A stretch of 64,000 bases of DNA, from contig WHVD01000051.1 in assembly GCA_015178975.1 (NCBI GenBank), positions 496,001 through 560,000 on the forward strand, read 5' to 3'. The position numbers and the translations under genes were made by a program. Below the pieces are notes generated by a model. It worked only from the letters and a program-made list of their open reading frames with translations. It had not been told where the DNA came from and did no database searches. This stretch comes from Hysterangium stoloniferum (lineage: Eukaryota > Basidiomycota > Agaricomycetes > Hysterangiales > Hysterangiaceae). Shown in pieces: positions 3,202 to 63,687 of this stretch; positions within the stretch are counted from its first letter, which is position 1, and the number at the start of each line of letters is the position of its first letter.

Positions 3202-4398
3202 TCAGCGGCCCATCCAACCCTTTTAGGTATAAGCAGCGCGAAAAAAGGGAGAAGGAACAGTGCATGCACGGGCAATTTAGCGGGGGTGTGAATAAGGTGT
3301 AGCAATTTGCTCGTGTGAGCACATCCGAAATGGCCGTAATAACCATTACGTATATCGCAAAGGTACAACGTGCATGTGAGTCGTGAAATGACGTGTAATA
3401 ATGGATCACGCGTTTTTCGGGGTAGGAAGCGACACCGAGAAGCAAGGAACACAAATGGGAAGACAGGGCGGGAGAAATTTAGTAACAAAATTGCACGAAA
3501 GAGAAGAAGCATCCTTACGCCGTCAACCACCAAGACTTCTCCATTAACGTACTGGCTCGCGGCACTGGCAAGGAACACGACGGGCCCTGCAAAGTCAGCA
3601 GGGGTACCCCACCTGCCTGCCGGTATACGCTCGGTAATTTGACGGAATCGGGCGGGTGCTTTGATAAGTGCGGTATTCCTACAAATAATTGCCGTCAAGT
3701 GACCTCGGCATATGAAAGCAAATGGCGTGACTGACATGTCCGTGTCGATGTACCCCGGGGCAATCGCATTGACATGCACATTATGCATGCTCCACTCATT
3801 GCTGAGAGCCTTTGTGAGCTGGCCGACGGCACCCTTCGCGGCCGCATACGCTGGCACGGTAAGTCCGCCTTGGAAAGTGAGCAAAGAGGCGAAGTTGATT
3901 ATGTGGCCACGGCGCAGGGGAAGCATATGGCGGCCAGCGGATTGACAAAGGAGAAAGACAGATTTGAGGTTAATGTTGATTACCTGTTGGGCGCATTATA
4001 GTCATGGTTAATGCGGGAGATACAACGAGACGCGGCGACGCGGTACACACATCGTCCCAATCCGCCTCTGTAAAGTCAACACTCGGTGCACGTCTCTGGA
4101 TCCCTGCACAATTTACGAGAATATGTATTTCTCCCCCCATGACAATCCTTGCTTCTTCAAACACGTTCTTCGCTGCGTCGATGTCTGACAAGTCGCACAC
4201 GACATGCTTATGGCTGTCCCCCGGAAACGGCAATGGTGGGTTCGGTGTTCGGGATACGATACAGATGGAGGCTCCCGCTTCTGCCAATGCCTGAGCACAT
4301 GCGTGACCAATACCTCGCGTTGCACCAGTGATGAGGGCATTCTTCCCAGTGAGGTCGAAGAGAGCGGGAGCGGGAACTGTGGGGGTAAACGAGGACAT
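3202..4398 (-). CDS. Short-chain dehydrogenase/reductase (KduD / gluconate-dehydrogenase-like)
   Basis: A classical SDR oxidoreductase, NAD(P)-dependent, probably cytosolic and acting on a sugar, polyol or sugar acid. Visible motifs: the cofactor loop TGATRGIG near residue 20, the NCAG strand motif, an active-site Ser in NFASLL, YAAAK (Tyr-x-x-x-Lys), and a C-terminal [15 protein letters not shown]. My exons are 4398-4051, 3983-3736, 3678-3519 and 3219-3202. They sum to 774 nt, an exact 257-residue protein and normal for the family. The last exon is only 18 nt (GWMGR and stop) behind a 299-nt intron, far longer than the 57-67 nt introns elsewhere in the gene. The family terminus DGGW-x-GR is what picks this exon. 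It is divergent from the polyol dehydrogenase at 4789, which suggests joint control. The exact substrate cannot be read from sequence. Confidence 0.88.
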
Positions 4399-53447: not shown

Positions 53448-55990
53448 TCAGTCATATGGTTTCTCCCATTCCACCAGTCGCAAGACGGTATTTATGAGGG
53501 TTTGAGTCTCCTTCCTGTTCGCAATTTTCGCTTCCGCCGCAAACATGGATAATCGATTTAATATCATTATAATCCCGGTGGATAGGATATATGCACCATG
53601 TGTATGATATAGCCTATAACACGTCGCTTCAAGACTGAATAGAACGCCCCAATGTGATATAATCCCAGTCTTCCAAGTGGTGCCCCTTGTGCGGTTTCCC
53701 ACAAAATACACGGTTGATGGCACATAAATCGTTAGAATGAAAAAAAAGTCTTCTACTTCTGAACAAGGTGCCTTTGAGACCGACTGGAAAAGAGAGGAGA
53801 CTGTCCAGAACGCTGGGAAGTCCCTAGTGTTGCAGAGGTATTCGAGCAATCATTGAAGCATTTCGGAGCCAGCTATTAATCGCGCTTGGTCCGATGCCCT
53901 ACATCGTGCCTGGATAACTTGCAAATGTGGGTACCTATTGTTGTGTCCCAAGGCCTCTCGAAGGATTGGACAACGCGAGCAGTGTCCTGGGGGGGTGTCA
54001 GCCAAGGGCCTATAAGGTGTAAGCAGCGGAATGGATGATCGGAACTCCATGCATTTCCTTGTACTGGCGCTCCTTTCAGGAAGAGACTAAGGACCAGACC
54101 CAACGCGGTTTTATCGTCCGAAAGAAGTGTGTTGCAGTCTATCAGCACATAATGTAAAAGTTTCCAGTATCGGAAATCTGACGAGGTTCCCGGATCCCGT
54201 AAATCCTCTTTGTTTGAGAGAGTTACCAGGCTTCTCAAGAATAATATCCATATCTCCTTCCGTTGGCCATGCTTTGATTACGCGTCCCTCAAATCGGAAG
54301 AAGGGGTGACCCCAGTGAATACCTGTAAAGTACTGCAGAGCGAGAGCAGATATGGCCTTGGTGACTGTTCCAAGATATCTTGCTTCCTCGTCCATATTTG
54401 AAGAGTTTCGAAAGATGACTCGAATATCTGGCTCTGGACAGAAGATTTTTCGCTGTACAGTATATATATTGTCAAAATTGACTGTAAAATAAGGTCAATG
54501 ACAATTTGAAAGCAATGGGGAGGTCACAATTGAAAGTGCCTGGCTTAATTCAGAAACCGCCTGAGTTACACAATCGTCAGGCAATGCGGACGCCCCTTTT
54601 CTCCGCCCAACAAGTACCAATGTAGGGCATTACAAATGAGCTGTGTCTTCTGCACATTCATCCAAGGTGATGGCTCGGAAAGAAGTGTTATCAAGTATGC
54701 CTGTGCGTAATCGGAGAGTTCGTAGTGATACGAAGAACCACTAGTAGGACTACTATACGCTTCTACAAGAAGCCAAGCAGGCCAATAGCTCCCTTTGAAG
54801 GAATCACTGTTGAATTGAAATGCTGCTGTTTCACAGCTTAGGCTAGCAATAGCCTGGATGACAAACTTTTCGGTATGATGGTCATGGATTCTCGATAACC
54901 AAATGAGACCCTGCGCATGAAGATCAGACCGGCGAGTCATAATCGCTTCTTGCTCTGCCTCCGACAATCTCATGACGCGGAGCTTCTGATTTAACAAAAG
55001 TTCTGAATTGTGAAGAGAAATCGACAGGATCTGACCGGCTCTTTGAGCCCAATGATGAGAGGCTTCTAAAAGGGGTGTCCATAACAGCGCGAGCACAGCG
55101 AGAATAATGCGAATAATAAATCGATGGAGTCGAGTGAGATAGTATGACGCGATCTGAACTGTTCGATCTAAGAATTGTGAGGCGGGGGAGCGAAAGGGAC
55201 AACTAGGATCAAACACAGGAAGCACAGTCATGACATAGGTCATTCCGGCGAACGAGATAATCACCAAGCAAACCTCATAAATGACGATGTCTAGCGATGA
55301 GAGTAAGATGAGAAGACCTGTAAAAAATAATACCACTGCCAAATACATCACGGATGGCAATGTGTTAATAATGGCAGACATCCCCCATTTCTCAATTCTA
55401 TTATAACGAAATTGATGCGTGTATACGTCCTAGGCAGGCGAGTGATATGCGTAAATCCATTGCTTGACTAAAATTACCATGGGGGACACTGATGAACTTA
55501 AGACTAAACTACTAACCCACAAGGTGTTGATCCACCGAAAAATGACTGGAGCCTGGAATGCGACGCTGCTCGGCGGCAGCGTTGGGGGAGTGCTACACAC
55601 ACTACTATTTGCGATATATTCCAACGTCGCGGAGATTGTCGAAAGGAGAGCGAGGGATAATTCTCGTTATCTGGTTGTAAGAATTCGATGATAAAAGCCG
55701 TTAATATCGCTGAAAACAGCGCTCCCTGCCAGTGCTAAATCTAAGGAACGTTTGGCCTTCTCACAAAAACAAGTAGCACGTCCATGTCACTGTTTCAACC
55801 TTCCGTCATTATTTCATTATGGACGCGGGCTTTTTCGCTGTACTTCTCTCAGATGGCCGCGTTTTCGCCAAGTTCCTGACTAATGTCGACTTCTCCAGGA
55901 AGAGCATCCCTCCCCCAGAATCTCGAAGGATGCTTCCGTGGCTGAACAGGGATATCCTCCCTTTTTACGAGGTCATTTAGACTGATATTG
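53448..55990 (-). pseudogene. DUF6535 membrane-protein gene, broken
   Basis: The N-terminal half is a DUF6535 protein, a basidiomycete family of unknown function with four helices: DMDVLLVF joined to GALFSAILTAFIIEFLQPD, FRWINTLWVSSLVLSSSVSP, MVILVKQWIYAY, FRYNRIEKWGMSAIINTLPS, FFTGLLILLSSLDIVIYEV, VLPVFDPSCPFRSP. A long soluble part follows (FRYWKLLHYVLIDCN, LRLVEWEKPYD). In-frame stops interrupt it: TGA at 55,849-55,851, 55,795-55,797 and 53,850-53,852, and TAG at 55,430-55,432. At all three TGA sites the family context suggests Trp (TGG). At least two frame changes occur further on (near 54,590 and about 53,930). Coding texture is otherwise well kept, so decay is recent. The 5' end is not resolved. 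Confidence 0.72.
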
Positions 55991-59533: not shown

Positions 59534-59757
59534 CAGTGGATGACTCTCCGTAGCACTAAAACTCTAAGTTTCTAATTCAAAGTGACAGCTGTGACAGGTG
59601 ACAGGGTTTAGAACTTGCTGTTAAAACCGTAGAGCCAATTTCCATAAAATAGAAGATTAGATATATATGATTGGACCGTCATATCCCATTGTTGTGACCT
59701 TCTAATGTCACCACTCATGTCACAGCGCCATATATACCTTTAATACATTCAGCGTTC

Positions 59758-61163
59758 ATGGATGTATACAAAATAATGAATGACGAGTCAGAAGATGAGC
59801 AGGAGGATCAAGAACATGCATATGGGCTTATATGTATGTTTTAATGCATTTTTAGATAGCCCAAATACAATGGCTGAGATATCACAACCATGTAGGCATG
59901 ACTCTAGCCGGTGAATTGGAAAAATGTAGAGAACGTGCTGAACACCGAAACCCCGTACGCCTTTACCTTACACGTCCAGATTTGCCTCCTCCACAAGGTG
60001 ACACGGCCTGGCAGCATATGTGGACTGCTCAAAATGACCGTGCATTCATAACAACGATGGGTTTTGATGTGAAAACATTCAATCATATTCTCGAATCTGG
60101 GTTTGAGATACACTGGAATACCATACCTGTGGAACGATCAGATATTAGTCAGTATGCTGCTCCCCGCCCCAAAAGGTGGTCCTTGAATGCTGCTGGAGGA
60201 CTAGGACTGGTATTGCATTACATTCATTCTTGCATGGTTCAAACAAGCTTGCAACAAATTTTTGGATTGATCCCATCAACAGTCGACTGGTATCTGAAAT
60301 TTTCACTAAATATACTTGAGACGACACTCAATGATATGTCTGAGGCACTCGTTGTCTGGCCAAATCCTGCAAAAATGCAGTCATTTCAAAATATGATTGT
60401 TGCTCGTCACACCCTGCTTGTGGGAGCATTTGGAAGTATTGATAGATTGAAATTACCAGTTGAAGTCCCAGATGATCCATTGATGGAAAATGCAACCTAC
60501 TGTGGCTGGACTCATAATCATTATTCTAATCAAGTCTTTGTCTTTGGACCAGATGGTAGGTTAAAGGCTTGATCTTTCTAAAAGTATTCCATTTACATAT
60601 ATTCTAATTATTTAGGTACCATTCTCGAAGCAGTGCTCAATGTGTCTGGTAGCTGGCATGATTCGCGTGTTGCTCGTCCAATTTATGAGCAATTGCGGAA
60701 TAACACACCAGATGAATTTTATTTGGTTGCAGATACTGCTTTTCCCCGAGGTGCTCAAAGCATTCAGAACAAGATCAAAGCTCCACTGAAGTCTGGTGAT
60801 CGATTGCCACAATCTCACTTGGGACGCTTTGTACAACTAGCAGTTGATAGGGAACTACTTTCATATCGGCAGACAGCTGAGTGGGGTATGCGAGCATTAC
60901 AAGGCGGATTTGGTCGACTTCACGTGCCTTTGCTTGTGGATCCTTCTCAATGTTTACAATTAATTCGTGTTATCACTCGAGCATTCAATCTTCGGGTACG
61001 TTGTGTTGGTATCAACCAGATTCGTGCAGTGTATTGTGATATCTGGCAAGAGGCTGAGGGAGATGATGTTTATTCAAAATTTTCATCAATGCTCATGAGC
61101 GATATTCGCAAGAATGATCGTGTAGCACGCTTCCATACAATGGCTGTTGAGATACAGCAATAG
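59758..61163 (+). CDS. Harbinger DDE transposase (HARBI1/DDE_4-like)
   Basis: Catalyses cut-and-paste transposition. Main exon ATG at 59,898 (MTLAGELEKCRERAEHRNPV); an upstream exon from ATG 59,758 (MDVYKIMNDESEDEQEDQEH) may be spliced on through an intron of about 62 nt, so the start is uncertain. The DDE fold: GAFGSIDRLKLP with the first Asp, an intron at about 60,555-60,615 (GFGPDG-type junction), NVSGSWHDSRVARPIYEQ with WHDSR, VADTAFPRG with the second Asp, and RQTAEWGMRALQGGFGRL with the Glu. No stop or frameshift in about 400 codons. A Harbinger signature is SWHDSR plus DTAFP. It works with the Myb-like protein encoded convergently. Confidence 0.85.
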
Positions 61164-61288
61164 TTTTAGATCAGTAAACATTTTCTTGGGTCTAGTATAG
61201 ACAATTAAAAACATGTTATAGAGTAGTATTTAGTGGTACACAAGAAATAGAGTGCGGTTATCAAGAAATAGAAGCTATTTATCTCTAA

Positions 61289-62741
61289 TCAAAATGGCTT
61301 GTTGTCATGAATGGCAATGTCAGGGGTGACAGATCGGGTATGGAGAACAGGAGAAAGGGAGTGACGAGGATAATGATGCAGTGGGGAGCGGATCATTGGA
61401 ACATGGGCATTGGTCATATTGAACTGAGGGTGTGAGGGTTGTGGATAGTGGGGCTGGTTACGCAACATCTCAAACATCCGTAAATCCCTCTCTGCCATAT
61501 CTGCACGTCTAGTCTCACGATCCACATCCCGCTGTAACTGCCTAATTTGGCCCTCTGCCTCACAAAGTTGAGTTGTTAGAGAATGTAGTTGAAAATTTTC
61601 AAATCTACGAGCCTGACGGTTGTCTTCTCGTGTTGCCTGAACCTCTGGATCAAAGACACGTGCTATGTTGGCCAATGTACCACAAAGCTGTGAGGATGTT
61701 GTGTGTAATCCACATCCCTCTGATTGTGGTTCATGTTTGAGTTGACGGGCAATGTAGCTCTTTGTTTTGTGTTTAATTGGTGAACATGCAGGTGAATGGT
61801 CAGATGAGATGACAATCACATCCTCTTCCATCTCTTCATCACGTACAACATCAGATGCGACTCGGTTGTTGATGTAATGCTCAATCTGATGAGCACGCTC
61901 TATCTCCCATGGACATTCTGAATTTCCAGTTGGTTTCGTTACACGTACCAACTAGAAGTTGTATGATATTAGGTGTGGTTGTGGGAGTTTGTTAATAACA
62001 TACCTTTTTAAAATGTTTCTCCACCGCATCAGCCCCTCTAATTGGCCATCCATTCGAAACAGCCCAAGTCTCAAACCTTTTATAAACTAATGCCCACTCC
62101 TTAGGTCCAGCTGGCAAGATCTCTTCTGTGAATTCCATCAGTGCCTTGAGATCAGCCTGACTCCACTTTTTTGCCCCCAGTGCTCTACCCCACCTTAGAG
62201 ATAAACCTTCATCCCCCACATCATCCTCATAGTCATCATCAAAAGTATCCCGCTTTCTCTTTGATACAGGCACATTTCCATGTCCTCCACGTCCTCTATG
62301 ACCTGCAGGGGCAGTACACTTCCTTGGTCTGGTAGTCACGTTGCGTTTTGCTCTCATAGAGATAGCTGCAATTGTTGGGTCAGGCAGGTCATTCTCGTCA
62401 GATGCACCTTGTGGAAAAATGAATGATTTGTTGGTGGGGCGGGGCTTAGGCTTTGTTGGTATTGTATGATCAATGTGTGTGGACGAGAAGTTGGAAGGAG
62501 AGAGGGGGAGAGATGGACGATGTTCTTGCTGATTCAGGGAGGGCTGATCAGTAGGATGGATGGAACTTGTGTAAGAGAATGATGTTGGCTCCGATCTTTG
62601 CTGGCTCCAAGCGGGGGGAGTAGGAAATAACGAATTGAGAGGGGGAAGTCGAGTAGTGTACATTTCAGTAGGGGCATCCAGCTTGGTGGAAGGAAAGGAT
62701 ACAGAGCGTGTTGGACATGGTTCAAAGGTGCTGTCAGACAT
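61289..62741 (-). CDS. Myb/SANT-like second protein of the Harbinger element
   Basis: The accessory DNA-binding protein that recruits Harbinger transposase to the element ends and the nucleus. Two exons: 62,741 to about 62,000, then about 61,951-61,289. The first is Ser/Pro-rich, followed by basic SKRKRDTFDDDYEDD (a nuclear signal plus acidic patch), then a Trp-rich trihelix/Myb-like domain, RWGRALGAKKWSQADLKALM, PAGPKEWALVYKRFETWAVS and PIRGADAVEKHFKK. The second exon has acidic EEMEEDVIVISSDHSP (resembling a SUMO-interaction motif) and a coiled-coil stretch, LCEAEGQIRQLQRDVDRETR and RADMAERDLRMFEMLR. Frame open. Convergent with the transposase. Confidence 0.78.
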
Positions 62742-62889
62742 TTAAAAGGAATAGCAAAGCAGAGACGTTACCACCATTGAAAGCTTGACTCATATTTCAA
62801 TCTACAGCCCCTATATGTTTGTAACCTTTGTATTTATTTGTGTAAATTGTTTGACGCATTTCACTGAATGTTAAATAATGTTTTGCTCA

Positions 62890-63160
62890 CCAGTAAACCT
62901 TAAAGGACTTTCCAGACAAAAAGGGTATAGCAATGAACGAAGCAGGAGTCGCAGCTGCAGACTGATACATAGAGGGCGGCCAGGTGGCAGCAGCGGAAGC
63001 AAATGACTGAAAAGGATATATAGATTAATATATGACACATTGAGAATTAGGTACTCACAAAAATTATGAACGAGGGTCCTGATCCTCGTTCATAATTTTT
63101 CGTTTAGGACGAATCATCCACCTTCGAAAGGTGACGTGACAGCTTCCCTGTCGTCGCTTA
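62890..63160 (-). other. Possible small spliced ORF in the element's right arm
   Basis: On the minus strand a donor GTGAGTACC after the hairpin would join an exon ending GSGPSFIIF to one reading SFASAAATWPPSMYQSAAAT and ending KSFKVYW with TGA at about 62,890. This may be a leader exon of the Myb-like gene or captured host sequence. No family recognised. Confidence 0.25.
63059..63100. repeat. Perfect 17-bp-stem hairpin inside the Harbinger right end
   Basis: AAAAATTATGAACGAGG (63,059-63,075) is followed after 8 nt by its exact reverse complement (63,084-63,100). It lies about 130 bp inside the right terminal repeat. It could be a transposase or Myb-protein binding structure or a transcript hairpin. 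Confidence 0.8.
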
Positions 63161-63231
63161 ACGATCGGCATACCGGCAATATCACTTAGAACTGAGAATT
63201 TAGGATTCTAGGGCTACGGAGAGTCATCCAG

Positions 63232-63687
63232 TAATTCCGCGCCCTTGCGCCTATGACCGTTCTTTGTTTGTCCCTACTCGGCACCTATTCCGAGCACACA
63301 TAAGTAGTGCAATCGTCTTGTACTTACACCATCTGTCTCCCTCTTACGAGATCGCTGGGGTCAAACGGAAATTATATTAGATGTTCTCGATATGTTCTCA
63401 GAATTTGATTTCAACAAATATTTATTTATTGATGTCCCTAAAGCGTACGTATATTATAGCGTGGTAACTACAGAAGTATACAAATTAGATATCAAAAGTA
63501 AACACCACAACCAACACAAGATTGGACATGGCAAGGACATGGTCTTTATCGATCCTGCACTCGCCGTTCTCCCGGCTCTGGTGGTCGGCAATTACAGGGA
63601 GCCTGAAGTTTCTGAACACGTGTCCCAAAATTACCTCATCTTTGTGCATTATCATCTTAATACAGCCAATAGCAGCGGAAAGTCATT
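63232..63687. other. Intergenic, promoter of the edge gene
   Basis: 456 bp between the Harbinger end and the start of the truncated gene. A + frame at 63,392-63,736 has no domain. Confidence 0.4.

Follow-up and report, generated by a model that had tools for sequence, protein, structure and literature searches.

The analysed window, a stretch of 64 kb (G000:C453:496001-560000) from a genome of 111 Mb in 554 contigs, raises the question of which kind of transposon lies at 59534-63231. A complete-looking PIF/Harbinger transposon with terminal inverted repeats (TIRs) and two genes had been proposed there in an earlier note. Its general layout was recovered as that of the PIF/Harbinger-like PHIS superfamily, namely TIRs enclosing a DDE transposase gene on the forward strand and a convergent second gene on the reverse strand. 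On the basis of target, termini and coding features, compared with Pangu by its published description, the element very probably belongs to the Pangu group (Harbinger2 of Repbase) within that superfamily, as a cut-and-paste DNA transposon that is structurally complete.

The transposase gene starts from the first ATG of its open frame, and exon 1 (59898..60555, +) holds the acidic residue D182. A 60-bp GT..AG intron is predicted at 60556..60615 from the frame and the splice dinucleotides, and exon 2 with the stop codon (60616..61163, +) holds D259 and E308. An upstream exon from the ATG at 59758 is possible. The predicted splicing gives a protein of 401 aa without internal stops, which matches DDE_Tnp_4 (PF13359) in a Pfam profile search with 49.8 bits (cut-off 24.8) and thus possesses the type of catalytic domain by which the PHIS superfamily is recognized. 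D182 and D259 align with acidic residues of another local DDE_Tnp_4 family (L093). E308 is proposed, by its motif, as the third acidic catalytic residue; the glutamate of other families aligns opposite a different residue, and pairwise realignment gave no clear match to E308. A comparison of the transposase with solved structures detected no relative (best E 0.19, an unrelated protein), and an NCBIfam search with three proteins, the two transposase exons being entered separately, returned nothing useful.

The second gene runs in the opposite direction, with exon 1 at 62004..62741 (-) encoding the start of the product, a 52-bp GT..AG intron predicted in the same way at 61952..62003 (-), and exon 2 with the stop codon at 61289..61951 (-). 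Its predicted spliced product has 466 aa and no internal stops. All frames had been described as open, which holds for both genes after removal of one predicted intron each and not for the unspliced frames. The convergent gene had also been called Myb-like; the gene and its orientation stand, and its protein is assigned by Pfam to DUF6818 (PF20681; 35.7 bits, cut-off 27), with no Myb/SANT model matched at E values up to 1. The DUF6818 stretch showed no relative among solved structures (best E 0.21, an unrelated protein). A six-frame search of the genome for DUF6818 gave no match, presumably since the intron splits the domain; the controls gave none either, so that this search carries no information.

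The repeat search and the comparison of copies place the whole transposon at 59538..63229, with a length of 3692 bp; the span first given located the element correctly and took in target bases at its ends. The left TIR (59538..59585, +) starts with GGATGACTCTCCGTAG, and the right TIR (63182..63229, -) was located by inverted-repeat search. With one adjoining target base included, the inverted termini (59537-59585 and 63182-63230) are 49 nt long, imperfect and 80% complementary, which agrees with the TIRs of about 50 bp noticed before; the TIR proper is 48 bp, likewise imperfect. Their exact matches extend to 18 nt without a break, one duplication base included; when the two 140-bp end regions were shuffled 300 times by mononucleotides, the longest such run was 11 nt. 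Comparison of the ends of fetched copies shows that the constant part of the element opens with GGATGACTC. Three GTGACAG motifs (at 59582, 59591 and 59598; 59582..59604, +) lie at the inner border of the left TIR and directly inward of it. Further ones were found at 61326 and at 63136, the latter some 90 bp short of the right end. As judged from their sequence, they are possible protein binding sites. Near the right end is also a 42-bp palindrome with 20-nt arms (63059..63100; element positions 3526-3567), which has inverted matches in 19 other places.

The TTA and TAA beside the two ends had been read as a slightly degraded or palindromic target duplication. They proved to be chance flanking sequence, and the actual duplication is AGT on the left (59535..59537) and AGT on the right (63230..63232), of the form ANT. 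Both sides were read from the comparison of two-ended copies, and the ANT form is backed by empty sites of other copies. A total of 49 genome-wide matches were found for the exact terminal 16-mer GGATGACTCTCCGTAG, compared with 0 for the reversed control, and 48 of these 49, which are not all independent since eight have an identical left flank, are directly preceded by ANT; the exception is C9:286676 (TAT). The eight loci combining the left flank cacgagagaaat with the terminal 16-mer (L015, L024, L026, L034, L038, L044, L045 and L046) lie on eight contigs and are probably one insertion that spread through duplication of a larger repeat. Other copies with both TIRs had been suggested as the thing to look for, and the element is indeed not a single copy with unmatched ends: besides that in the window, 17 further copies have both ends. 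Identical ANT stands on both sides in 15 of these 18, and the flanks are unequal in L013 (TAT/AAT), L030 (AAT/AGT) and L052 (AGT/AAT).

Empty sites were searched by comparing the joined flanks of 17 copies with the genome. Among the best 40 of 1492 candidates, which were scored, at least 12 empty sites were found, giving 13 pairings with eight filled copies at seven distinct host sites (L019 and L060 at one site, L028, L030, L036, L043, L050 and L051). A single ANT lies exactly at the joint in every empty site, and the empty sequences display 1-3 differences per about 62 positions from the filled ones. As AGT stands in the empty site of L030, the left AAT of this copy looks like a later change. 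For the window copy, a 600-bp query revealed no empty site or second allele among the best 40 of 78 candidates; apart from the copy itself, the matches there were short repeats, all within query positions 1-82 and 366-449.

Could the element nevertheless be a canonical PIF/Harbinger transposon with slightly degraded TWA duplications? It has the DDE_Tnp_4 family and the two-gene layout in common with that group, and TTA and TAA do occur near its ends, but ANT precedes 48 of the 49 exact terminal 16-mers and stands at the joint of the empty sites, which makes this reading extremely improbable. TWA duplications had been expected at further copies, where, as at the empty sites, ANT was found instead, and a TWA target is ruled out by the two-ended copies and the empty sites together. 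The C|TNA|G target of NuwaII was likewise not observed in either. A duplication of only one base within an ANT target, the element then having the termini T...A, was also considered. The same filled and empty sites are expected from it, and L013 (TAT/AAT) fits it without any mutation; the three-base ANT reading was adopted after Han 2015 (PMC4482050), where, in the sections used here, ANT has the same kind of evidence. We note that TTA or TAA can stand next to a Harbinger-like end by chance, and that the reading of target duplications needs copies and empty sites.

With ANT as the three-base target, the element can be compared with the groups of the superfamily. In the parts of Han 2015 (PMC4482050) on which we draw, the targets are given as TWA for PIF/Harbinger, AT for ISL2EU, none for Spy, ANT for Pangu, CWG for NuwaI and C|TNA|G for NuwaII, and Pangu is the sister group of canonical PIF/Harbinger. 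Pangu is equated with Harbinger2 of Repbase in the corresponding part of Kojima 2025 (PMC12730594). Since its target is ANT and not TWA, the element very probably belongs with Pangu rather than with canonical PIF/Harbinger, as Han 2015 defines the groups. The autonomous Pangu candidates described there have a mean length of about 3487 bp and mostly two ORFs, and their TIRs of 11-40 bp usually start with AG or GG. The element conforms to this in its ANT target with empty sites, its TIR start (GGATGACTC, GG), its DDE transposase without other Pfam domains, its second ORF, and its length of 3692 bp. It differs in its longer, imperfect TIR of 48 bp and in the DUF6818 of its second protein, no known motif having been found by Han 2015 in the second ORF of Pangu, although the discussion of that paper mentions Myb/SANT. 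The same source places Pangu next to bacterial IS5, for which an ANT target is also given, and the element resembles IS5 in this respect (Han 2015, PMC4482050). Canonical PIF/Harbinger elements share with it the DDE_Tnp_4-type transposase, the second gene and the TIRs, and differ in their TWA duplication. IS5 elements are bacterial and shorter than the element, and their ANT target probably refers to the ISL2 subgroup; unlike the element, IS5 is not known to have a second gene or introns.

Full autonomous copies had been thought uncommon in basidiomycetes. This expectation is not supported, as Pangu is reported from 15 genomes, three of them basidiomycete, in the portion of Han 2015 (PMC4482050) used here, which counts 34 families with two potentially active. 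Moreover, the source genome contains 60 DDE_Tnp_4 matches, which are pieces of several families. The element very probably represents an ordinary, well-preserved additional Pangu family of an already described type. In other DDE_Tnp_4 families, for each of which one end was seen in two copies, AAT and ATT stand before GGAGGGTG, and ACT and ATT before AGAGAG. Genome-wide, ANT precedes 30 of 382 end matches of the first of these families, near the chance level of 1 in 16 (about 24). A DDE_Tnp_4 family other than that of the element, represented by L091 (G000:C113:789400-793600) and L092 (C441:106300-110300), has a 458-aa open frame with a C-terminal chromodomain (PF00385; 33.6 bits, cut-off 25.1), a transposase-chromodomain fusion; its 19-bp end, seen in both copies, has 382 matches in the genome. 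Elsewhere in the window, the frame 54569-55429 (-) matches DUF6535 (PF20153) with 41.5 bits. The DUF6535 family is found mainly in mushroom-forming basidiomycetes, and the frame is consistent with a basidiomycete origin.

Long copies beyond that in the window were found on contigs C35, C68, C398, C211, C5, C84, C325 and C522, together with many pieces, and several of the long copies are broken up by other insertions or deletions. C398 and C211 have both flanks in common and C376 shares their right flank; C325 and C86 likewise have both flanks in common and C291 shares the one flank seen. Such sharing suggests contigs that are duplicated or redundant, and not separate insertions. Seven long copies span both genes fully. 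Both frames are open in the window copy alone, and the six others all carry stops or frameshifts; this comparison took the window copy as its reference and is thereby biased towards it, and C398 and C211 do not count as independent copies. Each gene compared shows more nonsynonymous than synonymous differences (e.g., 28 to 5 in the C35 transposase), as expected of copies decaying after insertion.

The age of the copies was approached through private changes, defined as positions at which one of eight long copies differs while at least six others share another state (3209 sites). C68 has 7 such changes and the window copy 12, followed by C35 with 22, C84 with 25, C398 and C522 with 26 each, C5 with 52 and C325 with 61. 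The two youngest of the eight therefore diverge privately by 0.22% and 0.37%, and the window copy is, by this sequence measure, among the younger copies. C>T and G>A together make up more than half of the private changes in seven of the eight (8/12 in the window copy, 14/22 in C35, 6/7 in C68, 15/26 in C398, 30/52 in C5, 15/25 in C84 and 33/61 in C325), and exactly half in C522 (13/26). The low private divergence and the open frames of the window copy make it plausible that the family moved recently. The element had been described as possibly active or recently active; for the family, recent movement stays plausible, whereas activity of the window copy itself is not borne out. Loss of mobility in the family, with the open frames of the window copy as a chance survival, falls not far short of an even chance. 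It would account for the stops or frameshifts in all six other full-span copies, two of which (C398 and C211) share flanks, and for the 12 private changes of the window copy, eight of which are C>T or G>A. That the two youngest copies have diverged little by private changes speaks against it, as do the 1-3 differences per about 62 positions between filled and empty sites, by which the insertions are younger than the split of the host repeats.

Among 48 loci compared there are short deletion derivatives, in which roughly 223 bp remain at the left end and 453 bp at the right. The right breakpoint at 3240 occurs in ten loci, the left one at 223 in nine and both in eight; the spacer is 51 bp in six of the latter, 27 bp in L036 and 368 bp in L051. 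The simplest account of the common breakpoints would be a single deletion followed by spread through trans-acting proteins. L019 and L060 occupy two copies of one host site. At L060 (G000:C35:1142846-1147192), a long copy without its last 64 bp adjoins a short derivative in the opposite orientation, so that the left end is that of the long copy and the right end that of the derivative, which deviates in its outermost bases. AGT is common to the two outer ends, and the matching host site at L019 holds a short derivative alone. L060 looks like an insertion into, or a recombination with, a resident derivative.

What might the second gene contribute? We infer that the DUF6818 protein is a putative DNA-binding partner of the transposase. 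The gene could instead be a passenger or regulator, not a helper of transposition, and what the second ORF does is called unclear in the part of Han 2015 (PMC4482050) used here; however, most PHIS groups have two ORFs as a rule according to the same text, and the second gene is covered fully in 10 of 11 other long copies or fragments, albeit broken in most, while L069 ends before it. A passenger or regulator is thus unlikely. With the second gene as a helper, and by analogy with other PHIS elements, the DDE transposase, probably aided by the DUF6818 protein, would bind the terminal and subterminal repeats and excise the element. Its DDE centre would then cut and join the element to the target with a three-base stagger at A-N-T, and repair would fill the stagger and leave each insertion flanked by ANT. 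The same proteins would very probably mobilise the short deletion derivatives in trans.

The element ties DUF6818 to a transposon. This domain is not named in the literature searched, and the link is the one mildly new point. The thinly described Pangu group gains a structurally complete multi-copy family with empty sites in hand. We further propose, tentatively and at somewhat below an even chance, that this is a Pangu family still or very recently mobile in a basidiomycete, with DUF6818 as a dedicated DNA-binding partner. If true, DUF6818, a domain that Pfam lists without a function, would gain one, and the eukaryotic ANT-targeting group would become open to experiment.
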